DNA from: Planctomycetota bacterium
GTDB taxonomy: Bacteria > Planctomycetota > Phycisphaerae > SM23-33
DNA: 5,546 nucleotides
Direction of reading: 5' to 3'
Assembly: GCA_003644335.1 (NCBI GenBank)
Contig: QNCB01000109.1
Coordinates: 1-5,546, forward strand
Shown here: in pieces, positions 1 to 5,546 of the stretch
Layout of the letters: each line of letters opens with the position of its first letter
How positions within the stretch are numbered: the first letter of the stretch is position 1
Program-made: the position numbers and the translations under genes
The notes under the pieces: model-generated
What the model was told of the DNA's origin: nothing
Databases searched by the model: none
Seen by the model: only the letters and a program-made list of their open reading frames with translations

Positions 1-71
1 AGTCATTTTAGATTGAATCTCAAAAAAGACAACGCAAAAAGGATTTTTCGCCAAAATTTTTCGCCCGCCTA

Positions 72-100
72 TTAAACTCCTGGCCTGGTTGTTCGATAAT
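72..100 (+). promoter_or_regulatory. Putative sigma70-type promoter upstream of the HD-GYP gene
   Basis: TTAAAC (72-77) and GATAAT (95-100) are separated by exactly 17 bases, matching the -35/-10 consensus at 4 and 5 of 6 positions. Transcription would begin near 106-108, about 85 bases ahead of the ATG at 192. It is the best promoter match in the first 190 bases. The region is AT-rich, so a chance match is possible. Confidence 0.35.
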
Positions 101-106
101 AGTAAC

Positions 107-175
107 ATGGCGGCTGCCAAGGCGTCGTCTGTGGCGGGGGAGGAGCGGTGTAAGCGTCGCAAAGAGTGGGTTTAA
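107..175 (+). CDS. Possible 22-codon leader ORF before the HD-GYP gene (speculative)
   Basis: An ATG at 107 opens 22 codons ending with TAA at 173-175. The peptide begins MAAAKASSV and has a basic second half with one Cys (CKRRKE). There is no Shine-Dalgarno, but the ATG lies six bases after the GATAAT -10 box, where a leaderless transcript would start. The stop codon lies immediately before the GAGG (177-180) that serves the ATG at 192, an arrangement suited to translational coupling. Its function is unknown. An ORF this short can easily arise by chance, and only conservation in relatives would make it credible. Confidence 0.15.
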   Translation: MAAAKASSVAGEERCKRRKEWV

Positions 176-191
176 CGAGGTATGCGGTCCC

Positions 192-830
192 ATGCGAAGA
201 AGTGGACGAAGCTCGGACAATTTGGTTTTCCCGAATCAGCCGCCCGGGTTGCAGGGAAACGACATCCTGCCGGAGATAGTCTGGATCCAGCGTCAGCCCA
301 CGCTGGATCATTGTATACAGGTGGCTTGCTACGCTGAGGAGCTAGCCAGGCTGGCTGAGTTTTCGCAACGGGAAGTGGCCCTCGCCCGGGCTGCGGGCCT
401 GCTGCACGATATCGGCAAGGTTGGCGTTTCCGAAGAAATTCTCAACAAGGCTGGGGAGCTTTCGCCCGGGGAATTTGCCGAGATGCGAAACCACAGCCAA
501 TATGGCTACGATTTTCTGTCGCAGTTTCCAGACCTGGCTGAGCACGGGCAGGTTGTGCTGCATCATCACGAACGGTGGGACGGAGCGGGCTATCCGACGG
601 GCCTGGCCGGCGAGGATATCCCGCTGGCATCTCGGCTGATTCACCTGGCTGACGCGATCGACGTGATGCTCCGCCCACGCAGCTATAAGTGGTCCATGCC
701 GTTGGAATGGGTGCTGGGCGAACTGAGTCATCACAGCGGGTCGCAGTTCGACCCCGAGCTGACAGGCCTGGCGATGGACTGGATAAAGACAGGCCAACTC
801 TCACGCTGCCGGGCCAGGATCGCGGCGTGA
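192..830 (+). CDS. Stand-alone HD-GYP domain protein (predicted c-di-GMP phosphodiesterase)
   Basis: This 212-residue protein is nearly all HD-GYP domain. Visible motifs are His40 in the first helix (DHCIQVACYAEELA), HDIGK at 72-76, a second metal His at 101, HHER at 125-128, GYP at 133-135 and ADxxD at 154-157, followed by the C-terminal FDPEL. HD-GYP enzymes hydrolyse the second messenger cyclic-di-GMP, some also cGAMP, with a two- or three-metal centre. The residue four before His40 is Pro36, whereas in the tri-metal enzyme PmGH it is a Glu ligand, so a two-metal site is likelier (recalled, not computed). There is no receiver, PAS, GAF or membrane segment, so regulation must come from a partner or from expression. 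The usual SxRPYR stretch after the last Asp is altered to LRPRSYK. ATG 192 is the only ATG in a frame open from base 12 that precedes the domain; GAGG lies 11 bases upstream. The residues encoded before 192 do not look like protein. Confidence 0.92.
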   Translation: MRRSGRSSDNLVFPNQPPGLQGNDILPEIVWIQRQPTLDHCIQVACYAEELARLAEFSQREVALARAAGLLHDIGKVGVSEEILNKAGELSPGEFAEMRNHSQYGYDFLSQFPDLAEHGQVVLHHHERWDGAGYPTGLAGEDIPLASRLIHLADAIDVMLRPRSYKWSMPLEWVLGELSHHSGSQFDPELTGLAMDWIKTGQLSRCRARIAA

Positions 831-867
831 TTTTCGGCGGCATTTTCTTTGCCTATCATCAAGAGTC

Positions 868-885
868 CACAGATTTCACAGATTT
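868..885. repeat. Tandem duplication of CACAGATTT
   Basis: CACAGATTT occurs twice with no gap (868-876, 877-885), just downstream of the HD-GYP stop. It belongs to the degenerate short repeats that fill this spacer. Similar 'cacagatt' runs are familiar from intergenic DNA of Planctomycetota and other environmental bacteria (recollection, not searched). Confidence 0.7.
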
Positions 886-895
886 AAAAAGGATT

Positions 896-925
896 TAGTG
901 AACCTTCGGTTTCACGGATTTTTTT
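896..925 (+). terminator. Terminator-like hairpin with T7 tract after the HD-GYP gene
   Basis: GTGAACC (898-904) can pair with GGTTTCAC (908-915) around a TTC loop, with one bulged T. After a three-base GGA gap comes a run of seven T (919-925). The position, 66 bases after the HD-GYP stop and on the same strand, suits rho-independent termination. The stem is short and only half GC, and it lies in a repeat-rich stretch with similar words, so it may be weak or accidental. Confidence 0.45.
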
Positions 926-950
926 CAGAGAAATAACAAACTACAAAACA

Positions 951-967
951 CGCGAAAGAACGCGAAA
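951..967. repeat. Short direct repeat CGCGAAA, period 10
   Basis: CGCGAAA occurs at 951-957 and 961-967, separated by GAA, and is followed by related ACGAA words up to about 990. This is another member of the degenerate intergenic repeat series in the spacer. No coding function is visible. Confidence 0.55.
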
Positions 968-987
968 ACGAATTATCGTAAAAAACG

Positions 988-1060
988 AAAACAGATAAAC
1001 ACGAATGACGAATTTTTTTGAATTCAAAACACATTCGTGTCATTCGTGTTCTGCTGTTTT
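988..1060. repeat. Large imperfect inverted repeat (about 25 bp stem)
   Basis: The left arm (988-1013) matches the reverse complement of the right arm (1033-1060). AAAACAG pairs at the base, then a 3-base mismatch, then 12 perfect pairs of AACACGAATGAC, then a 2-base gap and 4 more pairs (GAAT). The loop is 19 bases and AT-rich. The right arm is itself a tandem pair of nonamers, ATTCGTGTC and ATTCGTGTT. The stem ends in a T run (1057-1061), so it could also help terminate transcripts from the left. It looks like two opposed copies of a dispersed intergenic repeat. Confidence 0.75.
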
Positions 1061-1104
1061 TGCCTATTCCCCTACTTGCTCATTCCCTACCTGCCTATTC
1101 CCCT
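1061..1104. repeat. Direct repeat TGCCTATTCCCCT, 31 bases apart
   Basis: The 13-mer TGCCTATTCCCCT occurs at 1061-1073 and again at 1092-1104. A shortened relative, TCATTCCCTACC, lies between them. This forms a small pyrimidine-rich repeat cluster directly after the large inverted repeat. A 100-codon reading frame crosses it (1005-1307) but is only a by-product of these repeats. Confidence 0.7.
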
Positions 1105-1140
1105 GTTTTTTGAACTTTTCTCTTGCTCGTGTCGATAAAA

Positions 1141-1280
1141 CATTAGCTCGTCAGCTTGGCTTGGTGGATGGCGAGGCTGGTCGTTGCTGCGCCAGATGCT
1201 TTTGCGGGCTTGAATATCGCCCCGGTCATCGGCTACAATGCTCCGGGCTGGGTGGACGCCAGGTAGACGTTCCGAGCGGT
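1141..1280. other. GC-rich island of unknown origin in the AT-rich spacer (possible gene relic or repeat copy)
   Basis: About 130 bases here have gene-like GC content, in contrast to the AT-rich flanks. On the + strand an ATG at 1168 opens 32 codons to TAG at 1264-1266, with a protein-like composition (start MARLVVAAPD, end GWVDAR) but no recognisable domain. The last bases before the ATG (GGTGG) are a poor, too-close ribosome site. The complementary strand is also open across the island. It could be the remnant of a decayed gene, a copy of an intergenic repeat family, or a tiny real gene. I do not recognise it, and its edges are approximate. Confidence 0.3.
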
Positions 1281-1304
1281 TTTGATATAATTACAGGATA
1301 TAAT
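1264..1304 (+). promoter_or_regulatory. Putative clpC promoter region with two TATAAT boxes
   Basis: A perfect TATAAT at 1286-1291 is preceded by TG one base upstream (1283-1284), an extended -10. TAGACG (1264-1269) lies 16 bases upstream as a 4/6 match to the -35. A second perfect TATAAT is at 1299-1304, with no good -35. The repeated word is GATATAATTA. Transcripts would start near 1298 or 1311 and carry a 150-165 base leader before clpC. No CIRCE inverted repeat is visible, so HrcA control of clpC is not indicated. Confidence 0.5.
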
Positions 1305-1306
1305 TA

Positions 1307-1332
1307 GTAGGATACACAGCTCCTACGGAGCT
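1307..1332 (+). promoter_or_regulatory. Two mutually exclusive hairpins at the start of the clpC leader
   Basis: AGCTCC (1318-1323) pairs perfectly with GGAGCT (1327-1332) around a TAC loop and is followed by AAAAA. TCCTAC (1321-1326) can instead pair with the upstream GTAGGA (1307-1312) around an 8-base loop. The two stems share TCCTAC and cannot form together. If transcription starts near 1298, both lie in the leader RNA. There is no T run after the stem, so this is not a standard terminator. It may be a dispersed palindromic element rather than a switch. Confidence 0.4.
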
Positions 1333-1347
1333 AAAAAGAACTTCATG

Positions 1348-1408
1348 TGCTTCATGGTGAATTGTGCTTTTCGTGCTTCATGGTGAAATGTGTTTTATGG
1401 TGAATTGT
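1348..1408. repeat. Triple direct repeat of ATGGTGAAWTG in the clpC leader
   Basis: ATGGTGAAWTG occurs three times, at 1354-1364, 1380-1390 and 1397-1407. The first two copies are extended on the left to TGCTTCATGGTGAA and are 26 bases apart; the third follows after 17. The block ends about 55 bases before the clpC ATG. It is probably part of the spacer's degenerate repeat family. Tandem heptads upstream of clpC are also how CtsR operators look in Firmicutes, but the sequence here (GGTGAAW) is not the CtsR consensus GGTCAAA. Confidence 0.7.
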
Positions 1409-1463
1409 TGCGTAGCCGTGAGCGGTTACTAAAAACTAAGAAATTTTCGGAGATAAAAACGAT

Positions 1464-4034
1464 ATGTTTGAACGCTTCACAGAACGCGCGCGGAAGGTAA
1501 TGGCCCTGGCTAATCAGGAAGCCCAGCGGTTTAACCACGAGTACATCGGCACGGAGCATGTCCTGCTTGGCCTGGTTAAGGAAGGTACCGGCGTTGGTGC
1601 CAATGTCCTGAAGAACCTCGGCGTCGAGCTACACAAGGTTCGGATGGAAGTCGAGAAACTCGTCAAAGCTGGGCCTGATATGGTAACGATGGGCAAGCTG
1701 CCTCAGACCCCCCGGGCCAAGAAGGTTATCGAGTATTCCATCGAGGAGGCTCGGAACCTGAACCACAATTATGTCGGCACGGAGCATCTGCTATTGGGGC
1801 TGTTGCGAGAGCACGACGGCGTCGCTGCCCAGGTGTTGTTGAACCTCGGGCTGAAGCTCGAAGATGTGCGCGACGAGGTGCTAAACCTGCTCGGTGCCGG
1901 CATGGAGCCTGCAGACGGAGGCCTGGCTACCGCCGGGACTGGGGGCAAGGGCGGCGCAGCCCAGGGTTCAGCCAAGCGAACCAAAAGCAAGACGCCCGCG
2001 CTGGACAATTTCGGACGCGACCTGACAGCCCTGGCCCGCGAGGGTTCGCTGGATCCGGTCATAGGCCGACTTGACGAGATCGAGCGGGTTATCCAGGTGC
2101 TATGTCGGCGGACGAAGAACAACCCCGTCCTGCTTGGCGAAGCGGGCGTGGGCAAGACCGCCATAGTCGAGGGCCTGGCCCAGAACATCATCCGCAAGGA
2201 AGTGCCCGACATCCTGCACGACAGGCGTATCGTGGCGCTCGACCTGGCGATGATGGTAGCGGGGACGAAATACCGAGGCCAATTTGAAGAACGCATCAAA
2301 GCGGTTATGAACGAAGTCCGCCGGGCCAAGAATGTGATGCTGTTTATCGACGAGCTGCACACACTCGTCGGAGCTGGCGGAGCGGAGGGCGCCATCGACG
2401 CAGCCAACGTGCTCAAGCCCAGCCTGTCGCGCGGGGAGATACAGTGCATCGGCGCCACCACGCTGGACGAGTATCGAAAATATATCGAGAAGGACAGTGC
2501 CCTGGAACGGCGGTTTCAGACCATCGTGGTCAACCCGCCAAGCCATGAGCAGACCGTGGCGATTCTTAAGGGCCTACGCGACCGATACGAAGAGCATCAT
2601 CGCGTGAAGATAACCGACGAGGCCTTGGTCAGTGCGGCAGAGCTGTCCAACCGATACATCACCGGGCGAGTCCAGCCAGATAAGGCCATCGACGTTATCG
2701 ACGAGGCCGGTGCCAGGATCAGGCTGAAAAACATGACCAAGCCGCCGGACCTGGCGAGTATCGAGGTGCAGATAGACCGGCTTCAGACCCAAAAGGACGA
2801 AGCTGTCAAGAACGCCGACTACGAGCAGGCTGCGGAGCTTCGCGACCAGACAGAGCAACTCCGGGCGGAAAAAGAAACCATGCAGAAGGAGTGGAAAGAC
2901 CGGGGCAAGGAATCAGCTGGGATCGTCGACGAGGAAGTCGTCGCGGAGGTCGTCAGCAAGATGACCGGCGTGCCGCTGACCAGGCTGGAGAAGGAAGAAG
3001 CCCAAAGGCTGCTCGAGTTGGAAAACGAGCTGCACAAACGCGTCGTCAGCCAAAACGAAGCTATCGTCGCGATTTCAAAAAGCATCCGCCGGGCACGCAG
3101 CGGCATGAAAGACCCACGCAGGCCTATGGGGTCGTTTATCTTCGCAGGCCCCAGCGGCGTGGGCAAGACGCTGCTTTCCAAGGCCCTGGCGGAGTTCATG
3201 TTCGGCGACGAGGAATCGCTGATTCAGATCGACATGTCCGAGTATATGGAGAAGCACAATGTCTCCAGGCTCGTCGGCGCCCCACCCGGCTATGTGGGCT
3301 ACGAAGAAGGAGGCCAACTTACCGAACGAATCCGCCGGCGACCATACGCGGTGCTGCTGCTGGACGAAATCGAGAAGGCCCACCCCGACGTGTTCAACAT
3401 GCTCCTGCAGGTGATGGAGGAAGGTCAGCTGACCGACTCGTTCGGCAGGCGAGTGGACTTCCGCAACACGATATTGATTCTCACCACCAATATCGGCGCG
3501 GAGATGATAAAGTCCGGCGGCGGGTTCGGCTTTGGCAAGAGCGACGAGGAAGCGACCTACGAAAAAACCAAAGACCTGCTCCACAAGGAAATCGAGCGAC
3601 ACTTCAGGCCGGAGTTCATCAACCGGCTGGACGACATTATCGTCTTCAAATCCCTGTGTCGCGACGACCTGACGACCATCGTGGAATACGAGCTTCGCAA
3701 GGTGCGACAACGCCTGGACGAGCACGGGCTGGAGCTGGATCTCAACGACGAAGCCAAGGAATTCCTCATCGACAAGGGCTATAACCCGGACTTCGGAGCC
3801 AGACCCCTGCGGCGGGCGATCGAGCATCATATCGAAGACCCCATCAGCGAGGAAATTCTCCGAGGCAGTTACAAGGACAAAGCCAAGATAGTCGTTACCG
3901 TCAAAACCGGCGAACCAAACGAAGACGACGAGGACGACGATGCCCGCCATCTTTATTTCGAGGGCACGGGCCAGCGGGAGGCTCAGCCGGAACAAAGCCA
4001 GGACGCCGCCGAGCCAGTCCACGAAGGAACGTAG
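1464..4034 (+). CDS. clpC: ClpC-type AAA+ unfoldase, ATPase subunit of a Clp protease
   Basis: This 856-residue Hsp100 ATPase forms cytosolic hexameric rings that unfold proteins and thread them into ClpP. Two Clp_N repeats fill residues 1-145, each with a GTEH motif (29-32, 105-108), where Firmicute ClpC binds phospho-arginine. A Gly/Ala-rich linker (150-178) follows. D1 has Walker A GEAGVGKT (225-232), pore loop GTKYRG (267-272), Walker B FIDE (294-297) and ERR (348-350). The middle domain (about 410-485) is short, with a UVR-like coiled coil (about 431-466); this marks ClpC rather than ClpB. D2 has Walker A GPSGVGKT (562-569), pore loop GYVG (609-612), Walker B LLDE (632-635), NR finger (720-721) and sensor-2 GARPLRR (778-784). 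FGF at 688-690 sits where ClpP-binding loops carry VGF, LGF or IGF. An acidic tail (EDDEDDD, 820-826) extends the end beyond the usual 810-850 residues. GGAG lies 11 bases before the ATG; an in-frame TAA at 1437 excludes upstream starts. No clpP, mcsA/B or ctsR is in the window. Confidence 0.98.
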
Positions 4035-4096
4035 AAACGCCGCGGCGACCAGAGCGATTGTGTAGAGTGGAGACAAGACAGATTGCGGAACTGAGC

Positions 4097-4101
4097 GGGA
4101 G
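4097..4101 (+). promoter_or_regulatory. Ribosome binding site of the channel gene
   Basis: GGGAG lies nine bases before the ATG at 4111 and fixes that start, which also gives a complete signal peptide. The 76-base gap from clpC holds a perfect 10-base palindrome (4038-4047, CGCCGCGGCG) but no T tract and no convincing promoter, so co-transcription with clpC is possible. Confidence 0.7.
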
Positions 4102-4110
4102 CTGCGGACC

Positions 4111-5142
4111 ATGAGGATTCGTCGTTATACTCTAGCGGGGGCGCTGGCGTTTTTGTCCGTCGTGTTCGTGGCCGGCCCGGCGTTGGCCGGGGAGAAAGGG
4201 CCGGTGCTCTCGCGGCCCGGCAACCACCAAAAGCCTCTGAAAATCGACTTCGGCGTATATCTGATGGACATTGACGAGATCAATGGCCAGGAGCAGAACT
4301 TCAAGATAAACGCCGTGGTACTGCTACGATGGAAAGACTCGCGTCTTGCCCATCCGGGTCCCGGTAAGCGAATAGTCGCCCTGGATAGTATCTGGCATCC
4401 GGAGATACTGTTGACCAATCGCCAGGCTCGGCTGCGGATGCCCCTGCCGAGAATCGCAATGATCGAGCCCGACGGCACGGTAACCTTCCGCCAGCAGTAT
4501 GTCGGGCCGTTGTCCCAGCGGCTCAGATTGCGGGACTTCCCCCTGGACACTCAGGAGTTCAGCATCCACTTCGCACTGACTGGGATAGATCCGAGGGACG
4601 TCGAGTTGACCCCCGGAGCCTTTCCGGGCGGCCTGGTCGGCGGCGGAATGGCCAAGGTGCTCTCGCTGCCGGACTGGGGCATAGTGAGTTATCGGGCGGA
4701 AGTAAAACCCTACCGCCTCTCAGCCCTGCTTCAGGCGCCGGGTTTCGCATTCGAGTTTACCGCCAGGCGCCATTCGATATATTTTATCTGGCAAGCTGCG
4801 ATGCCGCTGATACTGATAGTCATGATGTCGTGGGTGCCCTTTTGGGTGGACCCCCGTCGAGCCGAGATGCAATTCGCCATCGCCAGCAGTACGGTACTGA
4901 CCCTGATAGCATTCAGATTCACCTTGGCAGCTATGCTTCCGCCCCTGCCTTACCTCACCCGGCTGGACATGTTGACCATTGGCGGTACGATTCTGGTGTT
5001 TATGGCGTTCCTACAGGTCGTGATAACCAGTTTGCTGGCCCAGGGCGAACGATTGGCCCTGGCTCGGCGGATAGACAAGTTGTGCCGCATAATATTCCCC
5101 CTGATATTCATCGGGCTGATAATACTGGCGCGATGGATCTGA
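4111..5142 (+). CDS. Prokaryotic pentameric ligand-gated ion channel (GLIC/ELIC-like)
   Basis: This 343-residue protein has the full plan of a bacterial Cys-loop-family channel without the Cys loop. A signal peptide (1-26, cleavage after ALA) is followed by a beta-sandwich ligand-binding domain (about 40-218) and four membrane helices: M1 about 221-246, M2 252-275, M3 284-310, M4 322-342. Family marks are FKINAVVLLRWKD (64-76), WHPE (95-98), DGTV (121-124), FPLD (143-146, with Phe150 in place of the second Cys) and SWxxFW (240-245). Aligned by eye to GLIC, M2 gives Glu252 at -2', Ala256 at 2', Ser260 at 6', Leu263 at 9' and Ala267 at 13'. A -2' Glu predicts a cation channel. The M2-M3 linker LPPLPYLT resembles ELIC. 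The M3-M4 loop is only about 12 residues, as in bacteria. The sole cysteine is Cys325, in M4. GLIC's His at 11' is Leu265 and its Glu35 aligns with Gln62, so proton gating is not assured. The agonist is unknown. It should act as a homopentamer in the inner membrane, ligand domain outward. Confidence 0.95.
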   Translation: MRIRRYTLAGALAFLSVVFVAGPALAGEKGPVLSRPGNHQKPLKIDFGVYLMDIDEINGQEQNFKINAVVLLRWKDSRLAHPGPGKRIVALDSIWHPEILLTNRQARLRMPLPRIAMIEPDGTVTFRQQYVGPLSQRLRLRDFPLDTQEFSIHFALTGIDPRDVELTPGAFPGGLVGGGMAKVLSLPDWGIVSYRAEVKPYRLSALLQAPGFAFEFTARRHSIYFIWQAAMPLILIVMMSWVPFWVDPRRAEMQFAIASSTVLTLIAFRFTLAAMLPPLPYLTRLDMLTIGGTILVFMAFLQVVITSLLAQGERLALARRIDKLCRIIFPLIFIGLIILARWI

Positions 5143-5448
5143 AGCCCAGCCGTCAAGAAACCAGAGGTCCAGCCGCGGGGCAACTGCGAATTTTTATTGA
5201 ACCTTGAATAATCAACTTAACTGGCTTGAGTGACGGCCAAAGCGGCTTCCAGGCCGGTATTGGCCGGGCTGTCAATATCATACGCGCTTTTGCGATATAT
5301 CAGCGGAGTACCGATTGTTTAAGTTTGTAATTCAAGCATCAATAGCTTCTATTTATCCAAGTGAGTGACATTTTTTTCTGGCGCGACGCTAGTCCCTTGT
5401 TTACAATGACTTGCAACACTTACATTAACCCTGTTTTAGGAGCAAGTC
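5143..5448. other. Non-coding spacer after the channel gene
   Basis: These 306 bases contain no credible gene on either strand. They turn AT-rich after about 5190. They hold a bulged stem-loop (5231-5274), a GATATATC palindrome (5294-5301), a T7 run at 5371-5377 without a preceding stem, and the hairpin leader of the next gene. GAGTGAC occurs at 5228-5234 and 5363-5369. I see no convincing rho-independent terminator for the channel gene. Confidence 0.6.
5231..5274 (+). other. Bulged stem-loop 3' of the channel gene
   Basis: The right arm (5262-5274) can be paired along its whole length: GGCC with GGCC at 5252-5255, GG with CC at 5249-5250, GCT with AGC at 5241-5243, and GTCA with TGAC at 5231-5234. 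The left arm carries bulges of one, five and six bases, and the loop is GGTATT. No T run follows, so it is not a standard terminator. It could protect the mRNA 3' end or be chance folding of GC-rich DNA. Confidence 0.3.
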
Positions 5449-5450
5449 AT
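5406..5450 (+). promoter_or_regulatory. Hairpin enclosing the ribosome site and covering the start codon of the last gene
   Basis: ATGACTTGC (5406-5414) is a perfect 9-base inverted match to GCAAGTCAT (5442-5450). The right arm includes the last base of the Shine-Dalgarno AGGAG (5438-5442) and the first two bases of the ATG at 5449. In RNA that starts upstream of 5406 the stem would hide the start codon; a transcript starting inside the loop would lack the left arm and be freely translated. A possible -35 box, TTTACA (5400-5405, 5 of 6), lies at the stem edge, with TACATT at 5421-5426 as a poorly spaced -10. Confidence 0.5.
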
Positions 5451-5546
5451 GGAAGACAAAAAGATCACGCCGCAAGAGCTAAAAACCGTATGGACGAAGG
5501 ATATGGATCAGCTGGCAGAGAAAGTCGCCGAGGCTATCAACAACGC
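5449..5546 (+). CDS. N-terminal fragment of an unrecognised protein, cut by the window end
   Basis: An open frame of 32 full codons starts with ATG at 5449 and reaches the last base, so the 3' end is missing. A strong AGGAG lies six bases upstream, which makes this a credible gene start. The protein begins MEDKKITPQELKTVW and continues as a charged amphipathic helix (DMDQLAEKVAEAINNA). There is no signal peptide or membrane segment. I do not recognise the family. The helix vaguely recalls the N-termini of some IS transposases, and the start-masking hairpin would fit that, but no terminal inverted repeat can be identified, so this is only a guess. Confidence 0.7.
   Translation, partial: MEDKKITPQELKTVWTKDMDQLAEKVAEAINN

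Follow-up and report, generated by a model that had tools for sequence, protein, structure and literature searches.

The window analysed here, a stretch of 5,546 nucleotides from a Planctomycetota bacterium (GCA_003644335.1, contig QNCB01000109.1, positions 1 to 5,546 of the forward strand), contains genes for an HD-domain protein and a ClpC-type ATPase followed, at 4111..5142 (+), by an open reading frame (ORF) that begins with ATG, encodes 343 residues and, with its stop codon included, is the gene for a subunit of a pentameric ligand-gated ion channel (pLGIC). This identity had been proposed in an initial annotation, which expected matches to the Neur_chan_LBD and Neur_chan_memb profiles, and both were obtained above their Pfam gathering scores: PF02931 at residues 34-166 (E=1.6e-17, 64.1 bits against 26) and PF02932 at residues 231-305 (E=1e-7, 32.9 bits against 28.1). 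The β-sandwich and four-helix bundle put forward as a check of the fold were likewise obtained in an AlphaFold2 single-chain model (pLDDT 90.3), which in a PDB structure comparison matches GABA-A, glycine, GluCl and GLIC structures. Family and fold are thus confirmed by computation: the ORF encodes a genuine prokaryotic pLGIC (Pro-loop receptor) subunit, an additional member, of the two-domain type, of a known superfamily.

The features anticipated in the initial annotation can be placed along the protein, all on the + strand. The signal peptide is plausible, since a hydrophobic model helix at residues 3-18 precedes an ALA-G sequence; the probable signal peptide spans residues 1-26 (MRIRRYTLAGALAFLSVVFVAGPALA, 4111..4188), with low model confidence at 23-28, and would be cleaved after ALA. 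The extracellular (periplasmic) ligand-binding-type domain follows at residues 43-220 (4237..4770), as judged from the model strands and the PF02931 match. Within it lie the WHPE motif (residues 95-98, 4393..4404), of which W95 and P97 are invariant in 38 aligned rows, and the FPLD Pro-loop motif (residues 143-146, 4537..4548), of which F143, P144 and D146 are invariant in the same rows and which conforms to the [F/Y]PxD definition of PMC4795631. Arg220 (4768..4770), immediately before M1, is also invariant in the 38 rows; in known structures this Arg pairs with the Asp of FPxD (PMC4795631). The SWxxFW motif is present as SWVPFW at 240-245. Alongside FPLD and R220, the other residues that mark the Pro-loop superfamily are all found, namely W189 in β9, P232 in M1 and P277 between M2 and M3. 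As predicted, there are four transmembrane helices in the model: M1 at 222-239 (with a further turn at 242-245), kinked at Pro232 (4774..4827; model and 38-row alignment); the M2 pore helix at 251-275 (4861..4935); M3 at 284-311, beginning within a YLTRxD motif at 281-286 (4960..5043; model and alignment); and M4 at 315-342 (5053..5136; model). No Cys pair surrounds the Pro loop, the sole Cys being residue 325 in M4, so the protein falls outside the strict eukaryotic Cys-loop definition. Nor is there an extra N-terminal domain of the multidomain DeCLIC type: the signal-peptide-like helix and a short linker lead to the first strand at residue 43.

One database search, with scoring restricted to the 7995 candidates having most words in common, yielded 251 relatives at E<=1e-3. 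Several of these, 60-69% identical across 86-98% of the query, are the closest near-full-length matches, while a 227-residue relative (P0001) is 100% identical and covers 66% of the query's length. The description of the new protein as a short, compact member proved not to be distinctive, since 80 of the 120 homologues listed are 335-360 residues long (15, fragments included, are shorter and 25 longer). Full-length comparisons with the PDB took in the best 60 of 357 and the best 60 of 379 rows, and in these rows sequence similarity is highest to the solved structures of GLIC, GLIC chimeras and GABA-A β subunits, joined by glycine receptors when the profile is used.

The pore helix carries Glu at -2', Ala at 2', Ser at 6', Leu at 9', Ala at 13', Arg at 15' and Phe at 16', the prime numbering and pore-facing pattern following mostly the convention for the family. 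The -2' position is assigned to Glu252 (4864..4866). Between SWxxFW and M2, GLIC lacks two residues. MAFFT assigns this gap to the M1-M2 linker; beyond it, residues 252-307 align without gaps and Glu252 corresponds to GLIC E222; Glu252 also lies opposite the -2' Pro of the glycine receptor (GlyR) and GABA-A α1 membrane domains, again without gaps. Across a pore-helix alignment of 178 distinct sequences (181 minus three duplicates), Glu occupies -2' in 20/24 sequences at 50% identity or more, 4/54 at 40-50%, 1/79 at 30-40% and 2/18 below 30%. Outside the clade of the window protein, the residue is mostly Gly, Asn or Ser.

The phylogenetic setting was assessed with a tree of 122 rows, drawn from 165 rows filling the columns to 80% by thinning near-identical ones at 80% identity; columns -2' to 0' and 15' were excluded, the tree is of a quick type without bootstrap, and ELIC, sTeLIC and DeCLIC are not among its rows. 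The window protein sits within nested starred groups of 10, 24 and 57 rows, and GLIC, one of the long branches and of unsure exact placement, falls outside a starred group of 106 rows that contains the window protein. Glu at -2' requires at least seven changes on this tree, a count from which gains and losses are indistinguishable. Since Gly, Asn or Ser predominates in relatives beyond the clade and GLIC branches elsewhere, the Glu common to GLIC and the window protein is best read as parallel. The initial annotation had called M2 GLIC-like with Glu at -2'; the Glu is real but the comparison misleads, as Glu is scattered on the tree, positions 9' and 16' resemble ELIC and 15' is Arg. Constraining the 19 rows with -2' Glu near the window protein to monophyly was not rejected (approximately unbiased test, p 0.545), a result that does not thereby prove a single clade. 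Among tree rows at 30% identity or more, an acid at 19' occurs in 0/20 with an acidic -2' versus 28/86 of the others. A trade-off between acidic rings at these positions was rejected: the starred branches provide four independent pairs with a median sign-test p of 1, and the pattern is therefore treated as shared ancestry, not as evidence.

Arg269 (4915..4917), at 15' in the alignments, marks the subfamily. Arg is found at this position in 149 of 157 aligned sequences at 30% identity or more: 23/24 at 50% or above (the remaining one being a gap), 54/54 at 40-50% and 72/79 at 30-40%, against 2/18 below 30% and none of the three reference sequences of the alignment. Four changes account for it on the 122-row tree. 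The PDB chains readable there have Asn (GLIC, 6fvq and GABA-A β3), Ala (ELIC) or Ser (GABA-A α1 and GlyR). PDB titles describe an ethanol-sensitive F14'A mutant of GLIC and an F14'A-N15'A mutant complexed with propofol; 15' therefore lies near the ethanol/propofol cavity. A near-invariant Arg 15' combined with a variable -2' is the most interesting part of this subfamily, although it constitutes a lead rather than a finding. Tentatively, and with the odds against it, we suggest that the window protein represents a pLGIC subfamily that is as yet uncharacterised and occurs in Planctomycetota, Verrucomicrobia and broad-sense Proteobacteria. Its Arg 15', together with the equally conserved TRxD of the M2-M3 loop, might form a charged latch between helices or subunits that governs gating, and the selectivity ring at -2' would have switched between neutral residues and Glu within the subfamily. 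Arg 15' would then replace the GLIC residue that neighbours the ethanol/propofol site and, if this were true, the subfamily would be a natural series for the evolution of pLGIC gating and ion selectivity.

Taken as a whole, the explanation that we hold with considerable confidence is that of a pLGIC subunit from a Phycisphaerae-like planctomycete, forming a homopentamer gated via the Pro loop and favouring cations through Glu at -2'. Computation supports the family, the fold, the conserved motifs and the lineage. By analogy with the family, five identical subunits would come together in the inner membrane, their β-sandwiches facing the periplasm. There, a small molecule or ion that acts on the interfaces between subunits, or close to them, would alter the β-sandwich; the signal would probably travel via the FPLD loop, pre-M1 Arg220 and M2-M3 loop, and M2 would then open the gates formed by Leu 9' and Phe 16'. 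The ring of Glu at -2' might then favour cations, selectivity being the least certain step. Several points weigh against this explanation. The protein's matches to the NCBIfam models TIGR00860 (E=1.1e-35, 123.3 bits) and NF033918 (E=3.7e-24, 85.7 bits) fall below the curated cut-offs of 280.2 and 500 bits, respectively. In the HMMER alignment the gap against GLIC falls within M2, at 254-255, and GLIC E222 is opposite Arg250 and not Glu252. Finally, 0' is Gln here, whereas Arg or Lys occupies this position in 79% of the set in PMC4795631. As to the gap, three observations favour the MAFFT placement of -2': residue 251 begins M2 in the model, prokaryotes commonly have indels in their M1-M2 linker (PMC4795631), and the GlyR and GABA-A α1 alignment is ungapped.

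That Gln at 0', together with Ala at 19' and 20', Arg at 15' and the absence of both classic selectivity motifs, also bears on a different view of the protein, as a pLGIC that is not cation selective or as a poorly conducting receptor that signals without ion flux; caution about predicting selectivity has been published (PMC4795631). The acidic ring at -2' speaks against this, an acidic-residue filter at the cytoplasmic mouth being described for all known cation-selective pLGICs in PMC9897478, and we regard such a receptor as unlikely. Somewhat less likely still is a proton-gated channel working like GLIC, even though no bacterial channel other than GLIC appears in the best 60 rows of the full-length PDB comparisons. 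Eight GLIC positions alter activation (E26, D32, E35, D122, E222, H235, E243 and H277; PMC5760087). D122 and E222 are retained and E26 is conservatively replaced by Asp53, which makes three of the eight, but the other five are changed (D32 to Gly59, E35 to Gln62, H235 to Leu265, E243 to Ala273 and H277 to Ser307). The GLIC-type titratable set, in which E35 and H235 matter most, is thus not reproduced as a whole, and Gln62 is almost fixed among relatives (147 of 157 aligned rows, with nine gaps and one Arg). The argument from lost positions is not decisive, since GLIC E35Q remains proton gated (PMC5760087); proton gating of the window protein is accordingly possible, if not predicted.

A further proposal would tie the channel functionally to ClpC in an envelope or proteotoxic stress module. 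The ClpC-type AAA+ ATPase gene (1464..4034, +; PF02861 twice, AAA_2, UVR and ClpB_D2-small) lies on the same strand 76 nt upstream, and a simple scan shows no promoter-like or terminator-like site in the intervening gap, so the arrangement favours the proposal to that extent and the two genes could be co-transcribed. Yet ClpC is very widespread, and homologues of ClpC, the HD-domain protein or the downstream ORF at E<=1e-5 occur in 0/28 loci from named genomes, many of them short contigs with channels at most 48% identical. A conserved clpC neighbourhood was accordingly rejected, no clpC homologue being found in any of the 28, a set distinct from L029-L067 and the close metagenomic relatives. 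We consider a functional tie to ClpC very improbable.

Elsewhere in the window, a terminator-like hairpin and T-run, identified by consensus scan, follows the channel gene at 5174..5188 (+). The HD-domain protein is encoded at 192-830 (+; PF13487, 5.6e-30) and bears HDIGK, HHE and GYP motifs, which we take to be typical of HD-GYP cyclic-di-GMP phosphodiesterases. An imperfect inverted repeat with 39-nt arms (72%) lies at 971-1077, and in the AT-rich gap upstream of clpC a 24-nt GTGCTTCATGGTGAATTGTG-like repeat occurs three times in near-tandem arrangement (1347-1413). Another ORF, starting MEDKKITPQELKTVWTKDMDQLAEKVAEAINN and without a Pfam match, is truncated by the window end (5449-5546, +). 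No RNA feature reaches its gathering score in the window and there is no tRNA. PBP-II or Cache partners accompany other bacterial pLGICs (PMC549065); no binding-protein partner of either type occurs within the window.

The neighbourhoods of relatives offer observations of their own. One locus (L004) carries three different pLGIC genes on one strand within 6.6 kb (5344-6453, 6758-7927 and 10911-11963), in a run that includes sulfatase, DUF1254/DUF1214, DUF2092, SYLF-domain and thioredoxin-like proteins. When neighbours from the 28 loci were clustered by blastp, families recurred among L004, L009, L012, L013, L015 and L025: DUF1254/DUF1214 and sulfatase proteins (3/28 each), an outer-membrane-barrel-like protein (weak matches, 3/28) and a family unmatched in Pfam (3/28), these being raw counts, with Pfam applied to one or more members of each family. 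At L003 (5982-9595) and L014 (3-5523), the pLGIC is preceded by a HAD-type protein and followed by an OprB-type porin, as assigned by Pfam and by clustering, respectively, with a radical SAM protein between HAD and pLGIC at L014. Directly upstream of the pLGIC of L009, a 165-residue protein (5766-6263) has a weak likeness to potassium channels (NCBIfam 1e-4, below cut-off).

Both ClpC matches and named relatives of the channel, among them a protein from a Phycisphaerae metagenome-assembled genome (MAG), uphold the planctomycete-like host suggested by the initial annotation. The neighbouring ClpC is 100% identical to a protein on a 10,346-base NCBI contig, and the 10 of its 120 listed matches that bear organism names are all Phycisphaerae, Planctomycetes or Planctomycetota, the top one at 86% identity. 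Since all named ClpC matches among those listed are planctomycete, a planctomycete host is well supported; the channel alone would not prove the host. Its relatives in named genomes, at 31-48% identity, comprise by title seven Planctomycetota/Phycisphaerae, six Verrucomicrobia, 11 broad-sense Proteobacteria and four other loci (Acetomicrobium, Gemmatimonadetes, Nitrospirales and Demequina), although all 28 titles say MAG and taxon titles of this kind may be wrong. Any channel match at E<=1e-3 is seen in 32 of 392 genomes from the phylum of one locus and 16 of 397 from the class of another, samples that overlap and in which matches are often weak and none exceeds 47% identity. The family is thus sparse in the sampled genomes, even among planctomycetes. 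A mobile-element origin was rejected, no relative being found in viral contigs (25 pattern matches, none confirmed), plasmids or phages. No paper on a planctomycete pLGIC was among those listed in a literature search conducted mostly without subscription papers, and the word stem planctomyc is absent from the main texts, as distinct from the unsearched figures and supplements, of surveys from 2004 and 2016 (PMC549065 and PMC4795631).

The interest of the protein lies in its being a two-domain member of a separate lineage, whose subfamily, with Glu or a neutral residue at -2' and a constant Arg 15', supplies natural variants for tests of selectivity and gating. Few bacterial pLGICs have, to our knowledge, been characterised. 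The text of the 2016 survey states that no biological role was known for the pLGIC of any single-celled organism (PMC4795631).

Among the known channels, GLIC is around 27% identical to the new protein, occupies a separate branch of the tree and has Ile, Asn and Ile at 9', 15' and 16' where the window protein has Leu, Arg and Phe. ELIC, absent from the best 60 full-length PDB rows, was aligned with the help of the matching piece of a relative (P0017). Its gates L240 (9') and F247 (16') (PMC12637682) are matched by Leu263 and Phe270, and the likeness extends through Leu 9', Ala 13', an aromatic 14' and Phe 16' to LPxLPYxTxxD, but at 15' ELIC carries Ala, and the Glu filter of that channel lies at -1' (PMC12637682) rather than at -2'. 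PDB entry 6fvq is taken for a variant of sTeLIC, because 6FL9 is sTeLIC (PMC12637682) and 6fvq has the same molecule name and length; its IAF-x-F core, Phe 16' and LPxLxYxTxxD align with the window protein, while its 15' is Asn. DeCLIC shares the pLGIC core, with the M2 region of 6v4a matched, but has an additional N-terminal domain (PMC9897478) that is missing here. The eukaryotic GABA-A β subunits possess Cys-loop cysteines, an anion filter and an intracellular domain, none of which the window protein has, and at 15' the β3 subunit carries Asn in place of Arg.
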